Shown one piece after another: positions 8,329-25,545 of a DNA stretch of 64,000 nt. Made by a program: the position numbers and the translations under genes. Numbering within the stretch: position 1 is the stretch's first letter; each line of letters starts with the position of its first letter. The notes under the pieces are model-generated. The model saw only the letters and a program-made list of their open reading frames with translations, was not told where the DNA came from and ran no database searches. Origin of the DNA: Straminergon stramineum (Eukaryota; Streptophyta; Bryopsida; Hypnales; Calliergonaceae); assembly GCA_963920665.1 (NCBI GenBank), contig OY987268.1, positions 6,264,501-6,328,500 on the forward strand. The letters run 5' to 3'.

Positions 8329-9098
8329 GGGGGATTGCAAGAAATACTTGTCCTATTTTTTGTCTTCTTGCCCTTGGACACGTGGAGTTTTTTGCTCATA
8401 ACTTTTGCATCATTTGTCCATTTGGCATGAAATTTGGAATGAAGGTACATGCGGTAGTTCCAAACATTGAGATCTTTTTTGAATTTTCAAAATTATTTTA
8501 CTATTAATAAATTGTCCCCAATTGGATGTCTATTTTTGCCATTTTAGAGGTTTATAGTCCTATTTTGACCCCAAAATGAAAATTTGAAGCCACAAATTAG
8601 ACATGTTGGAGGTCTACCAACATTACAAGGATTGACGATGAATTTTTATAAAAATAAAAACATGTTGATTGCAAACATGGGAGTCAAAGTGACCTTCCTT
8701 TGTGTGAAGGCTATGAAGAGGGAAGAAATTTCCTACATGAATTATTTGGTCCAATGCAAGCACAATCTTTTCTAGAAAAATAGTTCTTTTTTATGAATTT
8801 TTTATGAATTATTAAAAATGAAAAGGTCCACAAACCCCTATTTTGCTATTTTTTGCTTCCAATGGCTTTTGTAGTACCCTACAATAGTTTATAGTACCCT
8901 TCAATAGTTTGTAGTATGGCATAGTACTTCATAGTATTGAATTGACAGTAGAGATCTACAGGTGCCTTGAATTGATGGTTTAGATTTATCTACGTGCTAT
9001 TGACATATAGTATTGATAATTCTGCATAGTATTGTCAGTTCTATGGCCAGAAACTGTGTTTTTGATTCATAAACATAAACTGTTTCTTGCAATCATCC
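8329..9098. mobile_element. Non-autonomous DNA transposon, 770 bp, derivative of the 15.5-kb element
   Basis: The left end begins GGGGGATTGCAAGAAATACT and the right end, reverse-complemented, begins GGATGATTGCAAGAAACAG. A 4-bp duplication, TAGT, flanks the element at 8325-8328 and 9099-9102. On the minus strand, removing the element and one TAGT restores a continuous SRP54 reading frame, so the boundaries are confirmed independently. Its left terminal 150 bp resembles the left end of the large element at 9626 (shared blocks include acttgtcctatttt, cataact, and a stretch around tttcaaaattatttta). It therefore looks like an internally deleted relative mobilised by the same transposase. It has no substantial ORF. 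Confidence 0.85.
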
Positions 9099-9625
9099 TA
9101 GTACAATCTTTGAATGTTTTTGCTGGATCAAAAGTTGATTGTCCAATATTCTTATCCATTACAAATACCACTTGATTTGGCATCTATATTTATTATCAGA
9201 ATATAAATAATTATAAATAATCAAATAATAGGGATTATGTATTCAAAAATCATGGAATACATGTAAAGAACTAAAGATTTTGAAAGAAAAAACAAATTGT
9301 AAATGTTTAATACATGTAAATTTGATATTTTACATTTTGTATTTTTGTACGAAAATTATAGCATGAGTAAAAAACACTTACAATAACTTCAACAAATTGA
9401 TGCATTTCTTCAAATAGTGATAGTTCTTGCTTATGCCACCCGCTAGTATCTATAATGATCAAGTTATGCCATACTTCACTAAATTTGTTTATACCTTCTT
9501 GAATAATTTTCAATGGATCCATTTCTTTATGATTGTTATATGTAACAATCAAAAGAATATTTAGTCTATTTCCTTTCATCACTAGAACATGTCATTTACA
9601 CAATATATAATTTAATTTAATACAT

Positions 9626-9661
9626 GGGTGATTGCAAGAAACACTTGTCCTATTTTGCGTC
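9626..9661 (+). repeat. Left terminal inverted repeat of the 15.5-kb transposon
   Basis: It begins GGGTGATTGCAAGAAACACT and continues through a tattttgcgtc block. It pairs with 25095-25130 on the opposite strand. Confidence 0.8.
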
Positions 9662-10839
9662 ACACTTTCAATGCGGTGGTTGTTTTGTGCCATAACTATT
9701 GGAGAAATTATTGAATGAACATGAAATTCAAAATATATGTTCCTACAGCACTGATGAATGAACACAAATTAATCTGATTTTTTCAAAATTATTTTAGGGT
9801 GTGAAATTGAATTTCATTTACATGTCACATTTGCAGTTTTGATAGTTTTTAGTACTATCGAGTACCTTTTTTGAAGGATTACATTGTCAAAACTGGACAG
9901 TGAGCTGCTGTAGTGGAATTACAACTTCTGTGGAGAGGGATTTGCAAAATCATGTTTCAATTGCTTTCGGCATTGCTCCGATGTGTGCGACGTTTACACA
10001 ACATTTTCTAAGTAATCCAAAATTTTTTCCTATTTCTTCTTGCTCCATTCAGTAGTGCTCTCAGTTGGCAATAATGGCCACTTTTAAATTTATTTTTCCA
10101 AAATCATTAACTATTTTTCAAAAATGGAAAAGTTGCAGCTTCATTTTCTAGGGTAAATCGAAGACACTGTCAGAAAATAGTAGTCTAGGGTATAGTATAG
10201 GACTCCTTAGTACTTCGCGGGGCCCACTTCTCTTGCAAATTTGCCAACGTGGACTGCTTTCACGGCGACGTATTTATGGCTTAGTTTCTGGTGGCTACGC
10301 GTTTCGGCGGTTGAATGCTGCCGCCAGTTTCAGTTGCACATTGCTGTCTACCTTCGCTCCCCCAAGCTGTCATGGGAAGGTGGAATGATTTCTATGGGTT
10401 CTCTGCAATTTATCGTACGTGGGTTTAGGGTATGTTGCCATTCTCGATTAAGTGTGCACATACTAGGATTTGAAGTACTGGCATGGATGGTGTTCGCCGT
10501 GATGGCCGTCCAGGTCTGCGGACTCGACAACGGCTGGTGGTTGCTACGTTGGAACATTAACGAAGCCGTTGGAGGGATCGTCAACGCCGCAGTTGAGCGA
10601 ACCGTGCGACCGCGCAACGACGAGGTATAGAAGCAGAGGAGCTGGTAGCTGGAATTGACGGTAATGCACTGATATGGGGCTCCAGGAGGCACCGAACAAG
10701 TGTCTAGAGAAGTACTCACCAAATTGCGACTTCTCTCACGAGATTATTGGCATGAATTTGGAATCCTGATTTCAGAGCAGAAGTTCTCAACAAGGTTTTC
10801 AGTAGTCGCCATGTTTGTCCTTTACTTTCTAATTACTAC

Positions 10840-13800
10840 CCTATTCCTGAAGAAGCATGGGCCCAAAAGAAAATACTGCAGAACATTCATGCGGATTTGC
10901 GGGCCTTGAAGATCCCTCATTCTTCTGGAATGTTGGCTTGGAAGCACGCCATCCTTGAAGCAATCGTCGGTGAATTAGATTCAGACCTCACGAACTTCCA
11001 CAACATTCTTGGTACACGAAAGGAGAATTTGGTGGCAGCTATGGAGCGCCTTCAATCTGCTACAGAGACTATGTCAATCCGATACCAAGTCCCATCACGA
11101 AAGAAACGAGAATGTCACGCCCCTTAGTGACACTTACCACCTTAAGTTCTCTTCCAATGCTTCTCAAGCACTTGATACTTTTGTAGCACCGAGGGTTACG
11201 CTCTTCTAACACTGCACATGCCACGCACATCCAATGTTAGTCCCCAATTCCAACTCTTTGTGCTAAGTCCCAGTCACCGGGACTACTAGCACACACACAC
11301 ACCCATCATGATACCGGGGCATGTTACTTGGTAACATGGGGCGGGACTTCCATCTTATTGTGCAAGGACCCATGGTGGCACTACTCACCATGGTCCTAAC
11401 CGCCCTTGAGTGTAACCCCAACTCCATACTAGGCTCCTTGTATATTTGCTACTCTCCACTTCATCACTAATTGGGACTCACCATTCAGGACACCTCACAT
11501 AGCCTAGCAAGGAGTGGGACTCCACCCAACCGGTGCCACGGGACACACCCAAGTGTCCCATGGTGCCTTGGAGTGGTGGTGACCCCACACCACCAACCTT
11601 AAGTCACCGGGACTCACCAAGGCTCCAAGAGGGAGGGAGGAGGGAGACCAACCCCTCCTATAGTACTCTCTATGGGATTCGACAGACCCCCCCCTTGTAT
11701 GTCAAAGGGAACTCCCAAAACCACTTTGGTTTTGGAAGACCACCCCGTTTCTCCCGATTCGCGCTAGTTTGGGACTCCCGAACTTCCACCCGGCATAACT
11801 TTGCGGTCCGGGATCCAAATCGCACATGCGACCCCATTTTCGACATCTATGCGATGCGTAGATGCCGATGGACTACTCACTTTCTCCATTCGGACAAGTA
11901 CTCGCAAAATTATTGCCCTCCAAAGATTCGGGGCACTCCCGGCGCGGCCGGGACACCCCCAACTTTGAACGCCCATAACTTTTGACTCGCAAGTCCAAAT
12001 CACGCGTTCTTTGGACGGATAGAAGCGTCTTCTCAAGACCTTTCCAAGCATGTATCACACGCCGCCCAAATTTGTCCGCATCAGAGCGCTAACACGCTCT
12101 GATCGCTCGGGACTCCTAGTCCCCCTCACCTCATCTCTTGCAAGGCTTGGGGAGTCACCCCCAATGTCCCCCTTGCTCACCAAGGTGGCACGGGCACGCC
12201 TTGTGATGAGGGTCGTGACAGAGAAGGGGGGATTGACAACGTTGTCAAGGCTCTTGTGTTGCAATGGTGGACAGAAGAAACTCGAGTTAGTCCAAGATGT
12301 TGGGACGTTCGCAGGAAACGTCTTGGACGGAATTTGTATGATACACATACAACTCATCTTCTCTTGGAAAGCCAGGTTCCTCTTTCCCCATTCACTTTCA
12401 TGTTCCTCAAAGTTCAATGTAGTGTGTTTCGTAGTTACAGTTCAACTTGCATATGTGGAGGATTATGTTGTCTTCTGCAATGTAGACATTTCGAGCGCTT
12501 ATGATTCCGTACAGAAGAGTTTAACATACACCACATCGGCGATTGATCCAAGGTTATTACCAAGTAACTTATTCAAGAGTGCCCTGCGTCATCCCTTTGT
12601 ACACCTTGTTTCATGACGAAACTGTACTCAGTTGCCTTCCTATACCCAATATGTATTTACTCTTCAACGCATGAGGTACTTTCACGACACGTCCTCAGTA
12701 TTATATAGTTCCCCATCTTACCCATAGGACCTCCTCTGATTTTCGTAGTGTGCCCAGCCTTTCCAGATTAGAATGTCACACTCCTTTGTAGTGCATAATG
12801 TATTGCACACACGGCTAATAGTACTTTCGAAGTAAGCGAGAGTCCTTTCAGTTAGTGGCAACACACAAATGACTACACGCCTCTTCGTAAGTAGTACTTG
12901 CTTTCCGTCAGGTAGTAATTCATACATGTCACTGACGACATCACCTGATGAACATTACTAAGCACTACTTGCGGAGTACCCTGTACATGCCGAAGCGGCA
13001 CCTCCTAATGCTTTGCTACAGCCGATGTCCTCTTTGGACTGCGTATGCAGTCTGAACACGGCAAATAGAACCTGAGAGGATGACACTGTATTAGACGGAC
13101 CGCTTGCACTCCTTTTTCTGGCTTTCTGGTTCCTCAGGAGTACGTTGTAGTATTAAGTTCGCTTATGCCTTATTGTGTAATGTACTTCTAGTTACTTCTT
13201 ATGCACTTGGACGGCATGAGGTTGTCGTGCTTTGTAATGATTTAGTCCTTTCAAATCACTATTCCATGATCACTGACTCCTCTGGAGTGCACGGGTCATC
13301 CACTGCCTATGCTCTTTGAGTCCCCATTACTGTTGAACGTCATATGCTGTCTTTGAAAGGTACTACTGCAATCCTCCACTGTACAACATGACTGACCTGA
13401 ATATTACTTTCTTTTCATGAGAGTACTATATAGTACTATCAGTGAACTTGCAGTGCTTGTTTTAGTACTTAATGCAGTGACACTAGTATTTTAGAAGTAC
13501 TGTGACAGAACTACTCCTTGGGCTCACAGTTTGATGTGAGTTGAAGTTGACATCCCTAACTTCTATTTTGTGAATGTCTTCCAAATGCAGTTATACACAC
13601 GATTCATTGAGAAGCACCTAGAGTGTGCCATCCAACACTAGGCTTTCATCAACCTCCATCAATTTTTTTGTTATCAAGTGCAAAGAGCGAAATGTCTGCT
13701 GTTGTCGATACCACATTCAAGTGCTTTATCTTCTGGAGGCCTTGAATGCCTTCCGCGATTCTTCTAGAGGGGCACATGTCATCTTCCTCTGTGATTGCCA

Positions 13801-16155
13801 GTGCACTGTTTGTGACACCAACGACGAAGGAGTCTATAATGTTGGACAAAGTCGATTTCCTACTGTCACCACACTATGGGAAGCGCTCATGTGTCCGAAG
13901 ACAGAGGATGAGGAATTCCATCACCCTAAATGCTTGCTAGGAGCTTGCAGTAGATGTGGTCTTCAATTCTTTGACGTTTGTCCATGAGAAAGGGTGATTG
14001 ACGCTACTCGCACCATTCAATGGAAGTAGTTTCAATATGAGGTAGTCGGCACATGAGCGGACGGTCAGCCAAAGAAGCGCATTAAAGAGGTGTTGAGGAT
14101 GACTTCATTTTCAGAGTTCCTCGATTTCTTTTGTCCTTCACTTTAGCAATTCATTCGCCATAATTTCATAGCCAAGTGGCAAACACAGCAAGCCAAGCTC
14201 CTCCAAGTGTGCTTGCAAGGAGGCGTTGTCTTGACACACATTGATTTCTCTGAGAATTACACATTCGAACCTCAGAATGAGATTTAGTCCATGTACTACC
14301 ATTCTGACCAAATCACTATTCTTGTACAAGTGACTTACTCACTGGATGTTGGGGAAGATGTGGGGCAAGGGGGGGTGCACATGATGAGAGAGACACACTA
14401 CTACATCTCGGATGACAAAACACATGATACCGACTTTGCGCAACATTGCCTCATGCTCCACTAGAGGTGGATGCAATTAAAAAGATTGACCCCATCCATT
14501 CACTACGTCTTCAATGATGGATGCGTAGGTCAGTTCAAGAGTGCCAAGGCCATGTACTTCATAGCGAGGTGATGTTTCCCTCTATAATGCTTCGTGTTAA
14601 AAAAAAAGTCGGAAATAACTCGTTCGTCATGTCTTGTTGCTCTGTGCAGTCCTAAGTAGTACTCACAATACAGTTTGAGTCCTATATGTATAGCTAATTT
14701 CCAAGGCGTTGTCTAGCATGTATAATGGTTCATGCTACATTCATGTACGAATCCATTCCCAAAAATCACTGACGGGGTCAAGTACCCTACACTTCACTCA
14801 CACTGTGTTTCTTCTAAGTGGATGTAGATATCCAACCCTTATGGGCGTCTGCAAGATGCTTTGGAACTATTATCGGACGGGCCATGGAAAAGGTGAATGG
14901 GACGGTGCTAGGGCAGTCATCAAAAGGTCTCTTCACAATGAGCAACTTGTCAATCCTCACATACGCCTCCAAAATGCAGAAGACTGTGTTCAGTTCCTTA
15001 ATGCCACTATGGCAGGACCAGTTCCTAATCGACACAGAGGCATGAGGTTCCTCATTCCATGCTTTGCTTCCCTCCATTGTTTTACATGGCTATTTATAAG
15101 CTATTGCTGTCTCACATTATATATGCACTAGCAGCTTCCTCTGTTTCCAGAAAAGGCCTCTTCATTGAAGCTATGCATACCTCATAGTACTCTCTACCAC
15201 AATAGTTTTCTTACTCTCAACTCTATGTACCGCATAGTACTAAATGGCATAGTAGTCTTCGTAAAGTAAGCTATGGGTGCCACATAGTACTCATTGCCCT
15301 AGCAACCGATTTGTACATGTACTGTGAGATGCTCCATCTTCCTCCAAGGCTGTCGTTCAAGATTATGTAATTCGACGCATTCTGGTAGTTTCACAGTAAA
15401 GAATAGTGCATTCGTTACTAACTGATTCCTTCTCACGTGCATGCAGGTCATACCGATATTTCCATCATGTACGACTACATGAGGTTGACCGTGGGAATTC
15501 TCAATCTTGTGATCCAATCCCTGGATCCTCTAAACTACACTTCATCTTTGCTCCAGATAAGCATGATCCCACGAAACTGTTACTACGGCCGTTGTCATGC
15601 TTCTGCGGCCCTTGCGTGGAGGAAGATTTCAGTCATTGCGAAAAGAAGTCTTACATAAAGGTTTGGAAGGTGACTAAGATACAACGAAGAAATGTGGAAT
15701 TCACAGCTGCGCTCATGGTCCCAGAGGACGATGATGACAGTTGGGAGTACGAATACGACAATGAGAGCATGGGTGACTTAGTGCATGCAGGAGACAATTT
15801 TGCTATCCCGGTTGCTAAAAATAACGATGAAGGGGTGTCATTCTACATTTTACAATGTCAAAGGCCGAAACACATTGTCGAAGAAGATTTTGATTGCGTA
15901 TAGGGGGGGCATTTTCAAGCAGGAGACTCCGTCATTTCCGCAACGTACTATCAGAAATGGGGACGCAGAAATGCTAACAACTATGTGTTTTTACGTAATT
16001 CCAAGGAGGCCTTCATGGACGCCGACTCAGTCTTGGCCTGTAAGTTCCAAATGATTCCTAGAAACCACTAAGTGAAGGGGGGAGATGCAGTGTATACTCT
16101 CTCAGATGAGACTGTTGATGTCATCAACACAGCCCTAGAAGAAATGGATGCATAA
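10840..16155 (+). pseudogene. Transposase-like gene of the giant transposon, multi-exon, decayed
   Basis: The gene probably encodes the transposase. Readable blocks in order: about 10850-11112 (EEAWAQKKILQ to SRKKRE), interrupted by a solo LTR; 12221-12360 in the same frame (WWTEETRVSPRCWDVRRK); a Cys-rich block at about 13680-13985 (CPKTEDEEFHHPKCL, CSRCGLQFFDVCP); 13985-14568 with IDFSENY, QNE, HYYISDDKTHDT and NDGCVGQFKSAKAMYF; an exon from 14828 with YRTGHGKGEWDGARAVIKR; and 15440-16155 with a C-terminal Cys-containing and BAH-like region (FYILQCQRPKH, FQAGDSV). The spaced D (DFSENY), D (NDGC) and E (GHGKGEWDG) resemble a DDE catalytic triad, which is inference. Introns have GT-AG ends, for example 14569-14827. 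At least six in-frame stops lie in 13985-14464, so this copy cannot work. Confidence 0.75.
11113..12220 (+). mobile_element. Solo LTR, 1,108 bp, inside the transposase ORF
   Basis: The element begins TGTCACGCCCC and ends GGGTCGTGACA. The ends are imperfect inverted repeats with the TG...CA termini of retrovirus-like LTRs. A perfect 5-bp duplication, GAGAA, flanks it (11108-11112 and 12221-12225). Removing the LTR and one GAGAA rejoins the transposase frame exactly (RKKRE continuing to GGIDNVVKAL). No internal retrotransposon genes are present, so it is a solo LTR left by LTR-LTR recombination. The TGTCACG start is common in plant Ty3/gypsy LTRs. It is more GC-rich than the flanks. Confidence 0.87.
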
Positions 16156-16610
16156 ATGACGGAACTAGATGTCTCACGGAACAACTTCTTATACTCACAA
16201 CATACTGCTAGTACGGTATATGACTATGACAGTGTGCTGGCACACTTGCAAGTGCAATGCATTGCCGCATGCAGTTTGCTTCTTCCAAACAGTCATGAGC
16301 ACTGAATATAAGAAGACCCTGGTCTTATTAAATAGTGTGCAAGCATTACTTCAGCAGTCCACACTTGTATCTACAGTGATCATAGTTTTCATTGCTACAG
16401 ATGTAATTACATGCAATGATTTTATTGTTGCTCTCTGGAGCTTCCTTTGCTACACCACAATAATTCGCCTGTAGTGAACTTAGTCATTAACAGAAAATGA
16501 CTATTATGTTGTCTTATGAGTACTACGAATCGTCCTATTCAGTAAAATGAAATGATGACTATGTAATGTTTGAGGGTACTGTAGGCCCCTGGGATGTACA
16601 TAGGACAGTC

Positions 16611-18340
16611 CTAATCCGCAGGCGCTCTATACAGGTGACTGCCGCAAGTACATTTGAATGGGACATGTCTTCCATCTTTTCTCTGAAATTGGCATCCATA
16701 ATCCCATGTCAATTCCTCCCCCTCCACTACTTCCCGGACTGTAAAATAGGCCACTTGCATTAACAAGGAGGGTACAACTTATTACAAGATATAAACCTGC
16801 AGGGTGGACAACAGTTACATACACCCTCAACCCAACACTGTGTACAATCACATGTAGTACTTACATGGTATAGTGTGGGGATGCTGTGCTCCACCGAGAT
16901 TGGAATATCCATCAAGTTTGCATCGCCACATCTGCAATGGCAAAATCAAACAAGAAAGCTGAATTCCTTGAACAGAAGCCCCTGAAGCTCTTCAACGGTT
17001 GTATGGGGTAGTCCAAAGTACAATTAAAACAGAATGAACAATGCACCTGTGGTTCAGCCACCTAGCGACGTTTGTGATTGTGGATGCATCAATGGTCAGC
17101 AGTAAGTCATCTCCTTGGTTCATCTCTGACTGTCAATGTGCATCTAGAGCAACACAATACTTCTGACATATCTTACGAGCCAGAAGCTCCGCATTCGTCA
17201 CTATTTCTCCGTCGTATTCAAACACAAAAGAACTGCGGTTGAGGCATTGCAGTGTACGAATGCCCCAACCCTTTGTTGCTGAGACGGAAAAAACCTACTA
17301 CCATCCCACGGCAGTCATGAGTGCAAACATATTTACATTGTGCGTGCTGAGGTTATGATGCACTAATCTGGAAAGCAAGTTACCTGGAACCTCCGATATG
17401 TTCTGTCGCTGAAAATGAGAGATGTTTGCATGTCATTCGCCAAACAGAATTGCAAGTGTAGATTTCATGCCCATCCTTGACTAAGACAGGTACTTCAAAT
17501 CTCAGCAAATTCAAGTTACCTTCGAGTCCCTCTCCATTGCTAATCATTTATCAGCCACGTTTTCATTGGTTCCATCTTCAACATGCACAAGCAATCAAAG
17601 GAACCTTGCGTACCTCCAGTTTGTGTGTAAGTCCTCCTTGCACCACTCTATTCTTGTAGGGTAGGCCGCAACCACACACACGGAAGCATTCTTTAATGTA
17701 CAGTCGCTGCACATGCCCTGCGCAGCGACCTCCCCGCAATTCAGGGCAAGCATTTTGCCCATGACAACGAACTAGACCTCCGTTCGCCAAAGTGCACGTC
17801 ATCTGGAATTATCACTTACTACTAGTTAGGAAAATAGGATAGCGGGTTCAGTCTCCGGATGGATCTTCATTTCACTATACTCCATGCTAGAGCAAATGAG
17901 TACTATAGGACTATGCGGATTTCACTGTACTACATGGCACAACAAATGACTACTATACAACTCCGTAACCCTACTAAGTAATGACATGCGGGATAGGCAA
18001 GAACAAGCTCGCACTAACCTGCTTGATGTACCGTGGGTGAAGGGTACCGTCGTCCAAGTATGCTGACCTTGCATTCTCCTCCCACGGTGAAGTCACTCCG
18101 CCGGGAAGACCGGAGTTCCTTGCAGAAGTGCCTAAGGGATACATATGTACATAATATAATGTAGCTAGAGCTTCAACACTCACTGATTGATGCAATATGG
18201 GACTGCAAACATATGTATAGTCTGTGTCCAAGGGCAACACAGAAAGCAGTGTACAAGATCCCGCAAACAGTATGGGAACCCTTTCCATGCCACGTGACAA
18301 ATCACACAAAGTCGTTGAGCATGCCTCCTGTTGAGACCAA
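16611..18340 (-). pseudogene. SUVR-type SET-domain histone methyltransferase carried by the transposon
   Basis: The family methylates histone H3 lysine 9; SUVR4-class enzymes are known to act on transposon chromatin in Arabidopsis. In protein order on the minus strand: about 18200-18340 has CDLSRGMERVPI; an exon ending at 18019 has SAYLDDGTLHPRYIKQ; exon 17614-17802 is pre-SET (CPELRGGRCAGHVQR, KECFRVCGCG, KNRVVQGGLTHKLE). Exon 17047-17294 begins the SET domain (KGWGIRTLQCLNRS, FEYDGEIVTNAELLAR) and has NVARWLNHR. Exon 16865-16931 has CGDANLMDIPISVE. Exon about 16611-16761 has EELTWDYGCQF and the post-SET CTCGSHLYR, then TAG. Phases agree across these introns except at the last acceptor. The NHRC-DAN and ELTWDYG motifs fit the SUVR1/2/4 group. 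A TGA at 17133-17135 falls where that group has Trp, so this copy is probably dead. The intron-bearing structure suggests capture from a host gene. Confidence 0.8.
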
Positions 18341-18956
18341 CACATTATACAACAAGCACAAAGTTGTCCGAAACTATATATTGCATAAGTATGAAGTACA
18401 AGGATACCAAGAAAAGGGCGAAGAACTGCACCCACTACTACCCACAAGCCCACGGACCTTCCCTGGACTGCCCCCTTTTACTTTTGAGATGCAGCCCAAG
18501 AACTACATGGGAAGCGGACACTCATTGCTGCTTGAAAGTCCTGCGCTCCAAGCCAACGTCTCTCAAAAGTGGCGGAGGCAGTCCCCCCTCTAAACGCACA
18601 GTCCACCACAGTGCCTTGTGCTTGCAGCCGCGCAATAGTGTCACTTTTTACCCACCTCTCCAGGACTCGGAGTTTCTGCAAGACCTGTCGAAGGAGGACT
18701 AGACACCGAAAGTAGGGAACCCCCAGCTAGCCGAGGTCGCAACTGCCTGCGGAATGCATCAAACGATTTACCAGACTTCAACGCAGCACGACTTCCTCCT
18801 TTACCTACCACAGCATAGTCCACAGGAATGGAAGGTGTATGGCATCAGACGTAGCGTGCATAATGTGCATTGTGACCGGAAAGGCAATAAACAGTCGACA
18901 TTAGAACACATACAGCCATACAGAAAGTACTCATGTCAGTGCTCCCTAGTACTGAA

Positions 18957-20157
18957 TTAGTACATGCAAGTACGCCGTGTAAACTGCTTGCAAGTATTGA
19001 CAGTACTAGGAGTCCTTTTTAGTAAATGAAATGTTGGCCAATATGGTTGCTTTCGTAAATGACTCCACATGTATTGGGACAACTCATTCTTGGTGTGTGG
19101 CGTACCTGACGAGGTGTTTTTAATGACGCCTTTCACTAGGCTGCAAGCCTGGTCGGCCTCTATAGATGGTGACGGTTTCTCCTTTGGTTCTCTCGACGCC
19201 AGTGGTACAACATTGGCCACAATAGAGACAGTTGAACCCAGCAGTGCAACATCCTCTTTTACCGTCAAATCCCAAGGGTCATCTTCATCGGCATTATCAC
19301 TTCCTTGGCGCATCGCATCCTGCATTCACCGACGACGATCAAATTACATGTATTACTGTGGAAGTCGCTGAAATCCTACATTGACAACAGAAAGGGTTTC
19401 CTTGTCTTCGAATACAAAAAAGGATCACAAACTACATCCGGAATTCAGGACACTCGACTAGGTATTGAATGATTGGGTAGAGAAGAGCAGATTTCATTAT
19501 AAGGCTACATACCAGAGGAACGTGGAACTCCGTAGTGCACATAGGTACACTGGGATTGGCGTCGTCTGTGTCGCTAAATCCCAGTGACTGTGAATCCAGT
19601 TGTTGTAACTCCAAGTCCAGAGCACTGAGCGTCTTGTCTTTCTGGCTGAACTGCAGCTTCAAAACGTCCACCTCCCTTGCTGGTGAATCCGGAAGAGCTA
19701 TGGGTTCCCCTGGTGCTACCGTTGGAGAAGAGGTTTGAACGATCTTTGATGCAGCTGATGATGCTAAGGAGTCAGGCATAGGAAGACCTTTGTCTTCCTT
19801 TTTGTCCGCTAGGATAGTCTCCACTGCTGGACATTGTGGTGAGGCAATTGGTGCTGCTAAGGCGGGAGTAAGTGCAACAACGTCTTCTACATTCTCCGTG
19901 GTAATGTGAGTCCCTAAAGGAAACTCCTGTGCATCCGATGAAGACAGTGGAAGAGGTGTGTCACAACGACTATGTTTGATTCCTACAGAGGCAACGGAGC
20001 ATTTAGATTCAAAAGGATTAGACATGGCATCACCGTCTAGAGTGCCCGCTACACGACTGTCATCTCGTAGTCGTTTGCTTGAAAGAATGACATTTCTAGG
20101 CGAGGAGTACTTGTCCCCACTGAAACACTTCGTGAATGTGCTGTCAGAAGCGGACAT
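18957..20157 (-). pseudogene. Low-complexity minus-strand exons, possibly N-terminus of the SET gene
   Basis: Two open stretches are seen, 19432-20157 (up to 241 codons) and 18957-19325 (up to 122). Both are rich in Ser, Pro, Asp and Thr, with segments such as LASSAASKIVQTSSPTVAP and an acidic DNADEDDPWDL. There is a predicted coiled stretch with VDVLKLQFSQKDKTLSALD. They lie directly upstream of the SUVR-like domain on the same strand and could be its disordered N-terminal half. They could equally be a separate transposon gene. No catalytic motif or WIYLD domain was recognised here. Confidence 0.4.
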
Positions 20158-20639
20158 GCTAGGTGCCCCAGTTCCAATGGAGGAAAGGCCTACACATGCA
20201 GTCGACAGTGTTCGTGGTCAGGGTGAGTCACGGTTTGCTTCTCTATTCTCATAAATGCAGTGAGCACGGAAGAAGAGAGAGACATTCAAGAAGAGCACCA
20301 TCAATGTACCAATGACAAAATCAGGACATGTACTTTTACATACAGGAAACAGAGAAGGGAGTACTGCAATCCTACCAATGTACATCCTATTACATTTGCA
20401 CTGTTCGGCTAGTCCTGAAGCCAACGGAAAGAAGGCGTTAATGATTGGAAACTAATGTTATGTGGTGTTGCTATGGTGAACACTATGATTTGAAAGTACA
20501 AGACAGCCTTCTCTCCGTGCATGAAGAAGCAGTCACGTACCCATGACATGTCATGATCGGTGTTCCTAGGTAGATGGACACCGACCAAGAACAGTAGAGA
20601 CGCCTTCGACTATCGTAGGCTCCTCTGGTTTTCTCGCTT

Positions 20640-23203
20640 GGTCACCTGAAGTAGGGAAACCCCAGCTTTTCAACCACATTGGATGAACCGCGCCGCAATG
20701 ACTATGAGCGCATAGGGATGTGGCCTTGAACTAGTGTGCGGCGCACCATGGGTGATACACATGCCTACAAGCACAGACAAGCACATTTGCATAAGGGAAG
20801 CCCTCCGAGCATGCAGCACAGCACTGAAGCTCCAAACTTAAGGCAGTGGATACATCCTTAAACATCGCTTCAACGTGATTGGACTACAGATGGGGGTGGA
20901 GTATTGCTCCTTCTCCACCCTGCACTAGGTCTTCGAGGTGCTCTTCCAGTGTTGCAAGGCAAGATTGAGTACCCAATATTTTCCCTGTCACATCATCAAG
21001 AGCTCTGCGCATCTCACTTTCCACGGTTGTCAATTCCTCCATCTTCTTCGAGTGGCTGTCTAATAAGCGCTTGAGAAATTCGGAGCCGCCTTCCTCTGCC
21101 ATCTCCGTCATTGTGTCTTGCACTTACTGAAGTCCGAGTAGACTAGCTCGTTGTTGCTCTGTTGCAGAATCCGCCTTCGTTTGCAGTGCCTCAGCATCAC
21201 ACTCAAGTTTCCTCAAGTTCCTAGTGAGAAATTTCACCAGGTCCTCAACCTCGGCCTTCCTGCGGCCCACAGAATGTAAAGTAGGTGGTTAGTACTTAGA
21301 CAAGCGGACCTCCTCATAGTACAACAAAGTACTCATTGAAGTCCTAAGAGTACTTCATATCACTTCTCTTGTGCACACAAGTACAGTGATGTATGTTCCG
21401 AGGAACATGTAGTACTGTAGTATTCTAAGTATAATTGAAGACCTCACTAAAGTCCTGAAGGGACTACGAGCAACTACCTTAGTCCCAACGAAGTCCACAA
21501 TGCACGGGTTCGGATTGGTTTAAGTAGTGAATATGTGCATCATGCTTTTTTTTAGTCTTGTGAGCACCGCGGTGGTCACATTATCGTGACCTTGAGGACG
21601 TTGACAGTACATTATGGAAGTAGAAGGAATGATTAGTACAGAAGACTGTTTCTGTAGTACTACTTCTTACTAGTGAGTCCCTTCTTCTTCACAGATTACA
21701 ACCGAAAATCCGTGGAACTACATTGCGTAGGACAGGAAGGACACAAGTGTAGTGCGTCGAAGTTAGCATGTGGAAGCGAAGTGCATCACTAATGAAGGAC
21801 AAGAGTTAATGAGTGCTAGGAGTCCTATTGGACAGTACTGTAAGGATGGATTAGGCCTTAAGGAAGAAGCTGCTATGACTGTGCAGAGTTGCCTTACCTA
21901 GAAGGACAACCCCAAGTGCAGAAGTACAGGAGCGTTACTCCATGAAATTCTGCGCGCTAGTGCACTGAAGTAGTATGAGGACTCCGAGGGACATGTCTTG
22001 TAGACGAGAGGACAAGGTGCATCGACGATGAACTAATGCACTAAGTCATACTACCCTAGTAGTAGTCGTCCATTGCCCGACGCAGGGAGACACGTAAAAG
22101 TTCATGGGAATGCACTGAAGTACTGCATGGCCAAAGACCATGCCAGTTCGTAAGGGTGAAGTAGCAAACTTTGAGAAGAGAGCATGAACATACCTTTCAG
22201 CCCGGCAAGTGTCTGTCATAGTCGGAAGATGCTGATGCAGTTGGTCAGGTTTCACATTCCAGAGAAGAATGTTTTGTCCATCTCTGAATACCTGTAAGAC
22301 TGGCTTATTATTGTCCTTGACATCCAAGTACTTCGAAATTGCCTCACTTTGGACGACCTCAACGAATGGTCTATTTTGCGCTTCGGCAATCCTTGTCAAC
22401 CACGTCTTTACACGTTGGGCATATTGTTTCCGCTATCCCAAATTGGTTTCAGCAGTGAAGCCTACCCAATTTATGTCATAGCCTTTTGTGTGCAAAGTCC
22501 ACCCCATGGCCAACTCCTTCCCTAAATGAGTGCTGGAGTGCATCTTCTAATAAATCCGGCAATACAGTGACTCCACATCTTTCCACAAAGCGGGAGTCAA
22601 CCTTTCTGTGATAAGGAAACCATTCCGCCCCTTCTCTTCGCCAAACAAGGCTTGCACATCAGCTAGGGGCACGTCTTTGTCTATGCGAAGCCTATGCGGA
22701 TTCTTTCCATCTCGGGGGAGCTTGTAGGAAGTGTGGAAAATGTCTTCGGACATGGCTGTAGGAGGGCGCTTCGATGGGTGGCTGAGGAGATTGAGCTGGT
22801 GGCGGCATTCGTCCTCCGTGTACTCTCTGTTAGTGGGGGCGAGTTTCTTGCGCTTGGCCGGTTTCCTCTTCGGCAGTTGCTCCAAGGCTTCGCTATCTAA
22901 AGCTTCCTCGCTACTTCCTGACGATGGGGATGGCAAAGCTATCCGCTTATGTTTTTTCTTTGGACTAGGTCCTGCCCTTCCACCCTTTTTGTTGCTGTTG
23001 CTTCCACCTTCTCCTACAGCAGAAGCCCCCCCGAGCCCCCCTTTGTCCAAGTCAGACTGAACTGGACGTGATGCTGGTCTTCTCTTCTCCTTCTTCTTGT
23101 ACGTAATGGCATTACCGTCGTCAGCACCACTGTTGTCCTTCGCACGTGCATGCTAAGTTGGTTGAGGTCGGCCTCTGGCCGTAGTACTCTTCATCTTTGC
23201 CAT
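20640..23203 (-). pseudogene. Transposon protein with basic N-terminus, coiled coil and RING-like zinc finger
   Basis: The start is ATG at 23203 (MAKMKSTTARGRPQ). A single frame runs to a donor at 22194 through three TAG stops (23153-23155, 22547-22549, 22433-22435). It begins with Lys/Arg-rich nuclear-signal-like runs (KKKHKRI, KRKPAKRKK), followed by a globular part (DVPLADVQALFGEEKG, NILLWNVKPDQLH). A second block at about 20884-21270 is a coiled coil (FLKRLLDSHSKKMEELTTVE). A third at about 20640-20880 is a Cys/His cluster: CCAACSEGFP, VCACRHVYHPWC, then CAHSHCGAVHPMW. This resembles RING- or PHD-type zinc coordination. It is probably an accessory protein of the transposon. The function is unknown; DNA, chromatin or ubiquitin interaction would be guesses. 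The in-frame stops imply that this copy is inactive. Confidence 0.55.
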
Positions 23204-23966
23204 TGCACACACTGGTTTCACCTGTGTACATGTAGAAAGCATGCAAGTGGCAGATTAATGTCACATTCAGTACTTTCTATGGTACTTATGTAATACTAGA
23301 TGTATGCCAAAGTACTAATGCAATACTACATGGAGTCTTTAAGACAGAGTGGAAGTTGTAGAGGACTACATAGTCCGCACAGAGGGACGATGACTATACA
23401 CAAAGGATCCGCAAGGAGAGAATCTGAAGCAGTGGGAGAAAAAATGCTAGGTCAAAATGAATGTGTCTGCCTACGAGAAAGTCATGCTTCATTAGACGAA
23501 AAGTGAAGAATGTTTTCTATGTCTCGTAGAGCAGGCAACCTACAATACCAAGCAAGAAACGAAGAAGGGTATGACGTGTAGAATGCAGTCCTACATGAAG
23601 TATTGGACGATGCATTTGAACGTGGACAAAGAACTAGAAACATGAGATGAAAAGGCTTCATCAATATGCCTCACTTGAATAGGCCCATGCATCATAGACA
23701 AGTGAAGAGAGGGACAGCAGGCAAGGGCAAAGGAAGAGCAAGAGAAATACAAAAGCCAGCAGCACTCACCCGTATTTATAAATAGGACATGGGAGGAAAT
23801 TTTCGACTAAAGAGAAAATGAGTTCATTACTGGGAATACTTGTGGACTACACGTTCCATTCCAAGAACACAGAGCATGGAATCCCACATAGTAAAAATGA
23901 TTGGGGCATTCACTTGTACTATTTCTAGTAGAAGGACTTGGTACTACTAAACATAAACCCTAATTT

Positions 23967-24340
23967 CTAGTCATTGCTTTCTTCGGTCAACATCCTTTCC
24001 AAATCTGCCAAGCTAAATTGCCGTCTGGACCTTGTTGCACAAGCATCATCTGGGGTGGCATGGAATGTGTCTGTTGCCACAGCAGGCCGTCTATGTTCTA
24101 CTGGCTAAGGTAAGGCATGCAATAATTTCGCACATTCTGCATTACTCTCGTGGACTAGTTCGTGGAAGCTAATGCGGCGTCTCTGTGAAGGCTGAGGTCT
24201 TGATGTGCAAGTGACCGCAGCACCATGGATGATGCTAAGAGGCTCCTCACGATTGAATTCCCCTTTCTTCACATGATTGAGGTCACTGGGTTCCTCCTCC
24301 TCATCACTCCATAGAATTTTCCGTTTTTGTCATCTATAAA
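23967..24340 (-). pseudogene. Small unknown transposon ORF
   Basis: A minus-strand frame ends at TAG 23967-23969. It has an acidic patch after a basic start (KRKILWSDEEEEPSDLNH), a basic middle (SRPQPSQRRRISFHELVHE) and an amphipathic end (RRQFSLADLERMLTEES). One internal TAG lies between LLHALP and PVEHRRP, again where CAG (Gln) would fit. I do not recognise it. It is upstream of the RING-like gene on the same strand and could be a separate short nuclear protein. Confidence 0.4.
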
Positions 24341-25094
24341 GAGGAGCTGCCCTCAATACTTTCGATTTTACCATGCTGCCACCGTGGTTTTATACTTTTC
24401 AGTACTTTGATGACGATGATCGACTATTCAACAACTTCTAACAACAGATGATGATCCGAAACCCTAAACTCTAATGGAATTGACAATAGAAGTATGAGAG
24501 TGTCACTAACCTACGCAGCCGTCCAAATGTTTGACTTACGATGCCCTCGGAACAGCAGCGATAGTTCTGGACGCACACCTTGACTGCCCTCCACTGATCA
24601 ACGAACTGCACATTGATCCACTCCATGTACTTTGGGGATTGTACGCACTATCTCTCAGTCATTTGAACCGCCCTTCGCACCACAACTACGGATATACAAT
24701 GTCGGAGAAGAACACCACCAAAAGCCTTACGGTCGACACTCTTGCAACGAAACGGTCATGCAAGGAGGCAGTTGGGAGCGCGATGATTACCGAGCACAAG
24801 CTACGTCCTGAACAGAAAATGTTGCATTTCACAGGAAACCCTAGGTGAACGTGTTGGGCGAATTAAAGGAAAACGGCAAATTGAAGGAGACGACGGAATT
24901 GCGGATGACAGCAACTGTCGCAAGAAATCATCCTTCCCTGACATTTGCTACTGTCATCCACTACCATGGGTCCACGTGTCTTCCCAATATTTCATCTCGA
25001 TTCCAATCAACGGTCCACGGTTCATCTCCCGTACCCTTCATAGTACTCGCAGGACTCGTAGTACTAATAGGACTGACGCAGCGAACACCGAAAA

Positions 25095-25130
25095 CGCAAC
25101 AAATAGAACAAGTGTTTCTTGCAACCACCC
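25095..25130 (-). repeat. Right terminal inverted repeat of the 15.5-kb transposon
   Basis: Read on the minus strand it begins GGGTGGTTGCAAGAAACACT. It is flanked by ACAT at 25131-25134, matching 9622-9625. Confidence 0.8.
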
Positions 25131-25545
25131 ACATGATATTCTTGACAATTGACTTTGGTACCTTTTTGAACATTTAAGGAAAAAAAATGAAATCCTTGTT
25201 AGATACAATCTTAACTTGTAGTAATCTATTGCAAGCCATGTTCTCAAAATTTTAAAATATTTCTACCTCTATATGCCAAATCTTCACATTCATTGATATA
25301 TTTCAACAATTCAATTCTACAATGATCTAAATGTTCTCTAGAGCAAAAAGAATAAATTAAAAAAAAAACATGTAGAATGTTATGTATTCCATTAAATAAT
25401 TAAAACTTTTCTCATTTTACTTTCCATAACAAGGTATGTTGGCCTTTGTAGCATCTTATATGAGTTGATCAAATGCACTAGCTCGAAATGTATCACCACT
25501 AATCAAAGTTGGTTTGAATCCATTTTTCGATAGTAGTGGGTTTAG

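Follow-up and report, generated by a model that had tools for sequence, protein, structure and literature searches.

A moss family of DNA transposons with a gene for a SUVR-derived SET methyltransferase

Genes for SET histone methyltransferases have been described on DNA transposons of Phytophthora, in HarbingerS elements (Harbinger clade) and in MuDR families (Kojima & Jurka 2014, as cited in the sections of PMC12730594 consulted). Unlike these oomycete elements, the family described here resides in a plant, generates a 4-bp target duplication, has a transposase for which Pfam returned no match over cut-off, and carries a SET gene of the SUVR1/2/4 type that includes plant SUVR introns. VANC, the protein of Arabidopsis VANDAL elements, is to our knowledge not an enzyme of the SET methyltransferase kind. 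It offers a parallel as a plant DNA transposon protein that acts on the epigenetic state of its own element, but is described as a sequence-specific anti-silencing factor, working by a route other than that of the SET methyltransferase considered here (PMC5735166, PMC10398659, in part). Fungal DNA transposons (KDZ, Plavaka and others) carry TET/JBP genes and thus also combine a DNA transposon with a gene for a chromatin- or DNA-modifying enzyme; however, their enzyme is a 5mC dioxygenase, and Kyakuja, Dileera and Zisupton (KDZ) elements produce target duplications of 7–8 bp compared to 4 bp here, which argues against membership in KDZ (PMC12730594). Among the open-licence papers (PMC) listed in literature searches, none described a SET-bearing DNA transposon in plants, and the accessible main text of a 2026 review on plant gene capture has no occurrence of "histone" or "methyltransferase" (PMC13317346). 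The reading that we favor, with a probability of roughly 0.55, is that the moss element uses its SET protein as an active H3K9-type writer.

The window, the 64,000-nucleotide stretch of DNA that was analysed, corresponds to C6:6264501-6328500 of a 326-Mb moss genome in 59 contigs. The features of the element within it are collected in Table 1. Its termini form a 31-nt inverted repeat with 94% identity (pair I1). The same repeat is present at five of the eight left ends fetched from other copies, where similarity to the window starts at 9614–9626, and at four of the eight right ends, where similarity stops at 25130–25131 in three and the fourth carries the repeat at the margin of the fetched piece. 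Both ends were available for four copies. Two are flanked by identical 4-bp target duplications (ACAT/ACAT in the window, TAAT/TAAT at C3:45085218), the third shows one mismatch (ATTA/ATCA at C1:7217599), and the flanks of the fourth (C1:9782436) do not match. The SET gene is therefore flanked by inverted ends and a target duplication, and its spacing from the transposase is kept among copies. A host gene that adjoins the element and lies outside its real ends, which the first-pass annotation had named as a possible refutation, can be rejected with near certainty, and nothing was found in its favor.

Table 1. Features of the element, in positions of the window.
Feature	Position	Strand	Details
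Whole element	9626..25130	.	~15.5 kb (~14.4 kb minus nested insert); termini GGGTGATTGCAAGAAACACTTGT, inverted, with 1 mismatch at the right; target duplication ACAT
Left terminal inverted repeat	9626..9648	+	
Right terminal inverted repeat	25108..25130	-	
Nested solo-LTR-like insert	11113..12219	.	ends TGTCACG..CGTGACA; GAGAA either side
Transposase gene, main exons	13661..16152	+	about 13661-14572, 14823-15020, 15447-16152; convergent with SET gene
Transposase C-terminal domain	15741..16133	+	resembles BAH in the fold predicted for a relative; internal stops in window copy
SUVR-type SET methyltransferase gene	16611..18303	-	E1 18303..18019, E2 17802..17614, E3 17294..17047, E4 16931..16865, E5 16754..16614, stop codon 16613..16611
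Possible N-terminal exon(s) of SET gene	19432..20217	-	long open frame, candidate only
Third element gene	22046..23152	-	open frames 23152..22547 and 22432..22046

The nested insert is located upstream of the main transposase exons and is lacking in the copy at C6:23075895 (L080), in which the equivalent of position 11112 is joined to that of 12220. Related sequences interrupt the copies at C8:12894436 and C2:13261581, at other places. Just left of the element, a short non-autonomous relative (8333–9098, ~770 bp) has similar termini and TAGT on both flanks.

The SET protein found 115 matches in the genome, including 18 close copies (at least 77% identity in E3) that share the same exon layout, with E4 and E5 of one copy, L039, displaced by an insert. 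Fifteen of the other copies align unbroken over the region 16560–20300, at 87–94%, and the remaining two align in fragments. With L039 omitted for its displaced exons, 17 of the 18 close copies split into two subfamilies, A and B. These copies, together with several divergent groups that also have the gene, reject a one-off capture. Thirteen of the 18 close copies, on ten contigs in all, have their SET and transposase matches 2463–2486 bases apart, and the third gene of the element adjoins the SET gene in all 18.

As the close copies were found via the SET gene, an unbiased test of the association has to start from the transposase. A genome search with the transposase yielded at least 108 matches, which merge into at least 45 loci; both counts are lower bounds, since 95 of 148 candidates were scored. 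Pairing was then evaluated with 42 SET rows drawn from the 115 matches and 51 transposase rows drawn from the 108, leaving out extra exon rows of the same loci. A SET locus is found within 25 kb of 29 of the 45 transposase loci listed, always in convergent orientation, compared to 0.29 pairs expected by chance. The association follows transposase identity among the loci listed: 18/19 at 75% or above, 6/10 at 45–75%, and 5/16 below 45%. The other 16 of the 45 listed have no SET match within 25 kb, where the gene may have been lost, be too diverged, or never have been present. Conversely, 13 of the 42 SET loci, host SUVR and SUVH genes included, have no transposase within 25 kb among the matches listed. 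Of eight distant SET loci, three have no transposase in the 3.5 kb fetched beside them, but at two of these three it lies 11–12 kb away; no transposase was found among the matches listed for the distant SET locus at C11:15083077. Thus, the two genes are neighbors at most close loci and also in divergent families, which supports the first-pass proposal of a transposon that encodes a SUVR-type enzyme and extends it to a family. Contig C11 (17.4 Mb) holds 14 of the 45 transposase loci listed, 12 of them with less than 45% identity; at a guess, this contig might be a repeat-rich sex chromosome.

The identities of SET and transposase drop in parallel (Spearman 0.87, for six copies that represent subfamilies A and B and four diverged groups, or 15 non-independent pairs), which points to a single capture followed by joint inheritance of the two genes. 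This parallel divergence, and the presence of all three genes together in 18/18 close SET copies, would also be expected if the SET protein had a role outside chromatin and methylated the transposase or the third protein, thereby regulating transposition directly. Such a role appears improbable, as histone H3 is the substrate of its nearest matches with known activity and the sequences offer no pointer to another one.

The transposase of the window copy contains three TGA and four TAG codons within residues 1–304 of the search query. A likely N-terminal exon, which resembles Ceratodon P0026, was noticed by eye near 12235–12370. The protein has an RNase H core of the integrase type in which the acidic residues are conserved, as expected of a DDE transposase, and the fold predicted for a relative resembles retroviral integrases in this core. 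The C-terminal domain of the predicted fold is most like BAH histone readers, a similarity that is suggestive only. Pfam found nothing over cut-off in the window read-through or in six relatives (one relative has a weak hit with a MuDR name, E 0.13). Foldseek by itself returned weak rows, mostly Argonautes, and a name search with the label of the transposase's animal relatives gave nothing useful. The third gene likewise had no Pfam match over cut-off. It also occurs at C3:44510312 and C10:16413657 without a SET-protein or transposase match nearby, although at the latter site there is, 3–9 kb away, DNA that matches the SET gene region in its 5' part. The elements form an old DNA transposon family with at least three genes, which encode a DDE transposase, the third protein, and a SET methyltransferase of the SUVR1/2/4 type.

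Pre-SET, SET and post-SET motifs had been read on the minus strand inside the element in the first-pass annotation, in an interval (16611–18340) that fits the exons well. The SET domain is real. Pfam SET was matched with E = 4.2e-14 by the read-through protein of the window (stop typed as C) and with E = 1.2e-14 by a subfamily majority protein, and a phmmer search of the PDB with the same window read-through (stop typed as C) found EHMT2/G9a at 1e-26. The protein consists of a DLSRG.E.VPI motif, a partial pre-SET, a full SET domain, and a post-SET. The SET motifs NHxC, WDYG and GWG, the last of which is SAM-binding, were all found, and NHRC, WDYG, GWG and the post-SET cysteines are retained in the subfamily majorities. 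These majorities contain the post-SET CxCx4C pattern, whereas the window copy and L028 have a tyrosine in place of its third cysteine. E1 starts at 18303 or earlier, and the gene may extend further upstream.

The initial description needs correcting on two points, the pre-SET and the state of this copy. The nine-cysteine pre-SET is incomplete, as its first five cysteines are absent from both subfamily majorities, and Pfam Pre-SET (E 0.1) stays below its cut-off. Because of this absence, the element protein is classified by its sequence as an altered, SUVR-derived member rather than as a standard SUVR, and its fold or activity may differ from that of SUVR4. The window copy has an in-frame TGA in E3 at 17135–17133. 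This codon is not a stop in any of the other 17 copies; four have a stop one codon later. A 47-nt GT..AG stretch seen by eye in E3 was considered as an intron that bypasses the TGA; it was rejected since the skipped residues are SUVR-homologous and the 17 other copies have no stop there, making the stop private to this copy. The E5 acceptor of the window copy also lacks AG, which is present in 15 of the 17 aligned copies (all but the window and L035; L039 is not alignable there). Splice sites are canonical from the E1 donor through the E5 acceptor in most aligned copies. The window copy is unable to make the SET protein and, with stops in both the SET and transposase genes, a lost splice acceptor and a nested solo LTR, it is a dead copy of the element.

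The host has a SUVR4-like gene, L006 (C1:40243802-40245300), which is 81% identical to its Physcomitrium patens counterpart and 63% identical to that of Sphagnum; these values led us to regard the host as a moss different from Physcomitrium. L006 resembles the element gene in having the SUVR N-terminal motif, the SET and post-SET, and three introns at identical positions: after HRLQ (phase 0), inside NHR (phase 2), and after YH (phase 0). The motif, D[IL]SRG.E.VPI, and the SUVR intron positions were identified in the element gene by comparison with L006. The host gene differs from the element gene by an intact first pre-SET cysteine cluster and an extra intron within WDYG. The matching intron positions indicate that genomic DNA of a plant SUVR gene was captured, and a retrocopy was ruled out by the retained introns. 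The capture is not recent, judging from the identity of only 42–59% by exon piece between the element gene and L006; near identity to a host gene, which had been put forward as a refutation, is not observed.

The phylogenetic tree was built from hand-chosen rows, with SUVR3 and SUVR5 not included. In this tree, the element SET genes (those of the close family and of the divergent groups, plus two short proteins from metagenomes with 65–70% identity) form one clade with a bootstrap of 91 and an SH-aLRT of 86 (89/88 in a smaller set). The clade is placed beside SUVR1/2/4 of mosses and flowering plants, and a 100/100 branch separates the two SUVH rows, so that the element genes fall on the SUVR1/2/4 side, away from SUVH. 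One row, F_L013, falls outside the clade, with an unsure placement. In AU tests, all of which involve long branches, grouping the element genes with moss SUVRs was not rejected (p 0.167), grouping them with the host gene was borderline (p 0.0503), and grouping them with the host and Physcomitrium genes was rejected (p 0.0367).

The majority sequences of subfamilies A and B were compared as a measure of selection. They differ at 27 of 750 coding positions (4, 6 and 17 at the three codon positions) and at 60 of 762 intron positions (p 0.0004 for coding versus intron; p 0.008 for codon positions versus private changes). The resulting omega is 0.20 (bootstrap 0.08–0.43), or 0.26 with a longer E1 (0.13–0.55; the top of 1000 bootstrap values is 1.05); both values come from one comparison, A with B, in which changes are few. 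With expectations derived from the introns, there are 15 non-synonymous changes versus 56.3 expected (0.27) and 17 synonymous changes versus 17.0 (1.00). One transposase exon compared by the same route gave an omega of 0.13; private transposase counts were not used, being inflated by poorly aligned ends. The first-pass suggestion to look for purifying selection is thus borne out between subfamilies.

Private changes of single copies give a different picture. They are slightly more common in exons (489/12750) than in introns (406/12951, p 0.002) of the SET gene, and a context correction was applied for this reason. Relative to the intron-derived expectation, non-synonymous changes number 332/379.7 (0.87), synonymous changes 222/191.8 (1.16), and stops 26/24.7 (1.05). 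The uncorrected per-copy omega of private changes is 0.33–1.47, mostly 0.3–0.6; only the context-corrected figures are near neutral, and a slight lean to silent changes remains. At least one stop lies within the compared exons in 13 of the 17 copies. The SET gene was thus apparently maintained while the lineage was mobile and has been decaying after insertion. We consider the anatomy of the element and the selection on its SET gene to be almost certain.

Plant transposons are known to capture genes (PMC13317346, in part), and the decay of copies after insertion would suit a functionless captured fragment that hitch-hikes as passive cargo. The first-pass annotation had allowed for such passive capture, which we regard as very unlikely in view of the selection between subfamilies and the distance from the host gene. 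Non-synonymous changes between subfamilies would not be held to 0.27 of the neutral expectation in passive cargo, nor would one expect the canonical splice sites of most copies or the same convergent order of genes in divergent groups.

The pattern of mutation also contains a record of plant-type DNA methylation. Among SET gene copies L022–L037, private C-to-T or G-to-A changes affect 349 of 3162 CG sites (11.0%) and 524 of 4323 CHG sites (12.1%), compared to 234 of 13267 CHH sites (1.8%). Such an excess at CG and CHG is the expected trace of methylcytosine deamination, and the inserted copies were therefore probably silenced by CG and CHG methylation. Since inserted copies look methylated, the SET gene does not seem to protect them permanently from being silenced. 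The signature fits self-marking by the element and ordinary silencing by the host equally well.

The main rival explanation is interference, in which the SET protein would act as a decoy, or as an enzyme with altered properties, and would poison or redirect the host SUVR/H3K9 silencing so that the element stays expressed. The altered pre-SET of both subfamilies, in a gene under selection, agrees with this idea, as does the existence of anti-silencing proteins on plant transposons (PMC5735166, PMC10398659, in part). However, the subfamily majorities conserve catalytic and post-SET residues, which a decoy would not need, and the CG/CHG signature suggests that inserted copies were silenced anyway. 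We consider interference unlikely, but less so than the other alternatives.

The self-marking writer remains our preferred reading, and it can be summarized as follows. The SET gene was captured with its introns from a plant SUVR before the present transposase groups diverged to ~40% identity. It has been passed on alongside the transposase ever since, and wherever selection on it could be measured it was purifying. Its product would be an active histone methyltransferase, most likely acting on H3K9. The element would apply this enzyme to its own chromatin, marking copies or insertion sites and thereby limiting or steering its activity. An active methyltransferase is quite probable, based on the conserved catalytic motifs and on selection. 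SUVR4 deposits H3K9me2/me3, while SUVR1 and SUVR2 were inactive in vitro, with a table crediting SUVR2 with activity from a later study (PMC7218100, in part); because of these inactive relatives, kinship with the SUVR type is no proof of catalysis. That the target is H3K9 on the element's own chromatin is a tentative proposal, for which we see somewhat less than even odds.

Through its BAH-like end, the transposase may act as a reader of histone marks. A transposon that combines a writer and a reader could then be envisaged, in which the H3K9-type methyltransferase marks chromatin and the BAH-like domain binds the methylated tails, so that the element integrates or stays there. This extension is doubtful; if true, the element would have made its own safe harbour, selected since before the groups diverged to 40% identity. 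Transposons are usually viewed as targets of H3K9 methylation, and a plant transposon lineage that keeps its own SUVR-type methyltransferase under selection suggests that such elements can profit from silencing or manipulate it. Mosses, with their easy genetics, allow a test of whether mobile elements place repressive marks on themselves.

A second SET-bearing repeat was observed in the same genome. At nine places (L016, L018, L020 and others), its SET matches fall in a 197-aa frame with no or almost no interruption, and it had no match to the SUVR-type query. L018 and L020 are 92% identical over 3.0 kb, and L016 is 77–79% identical to both over ~2 kb. This repeat could represent a further mobile element of the moss with a SET gene.
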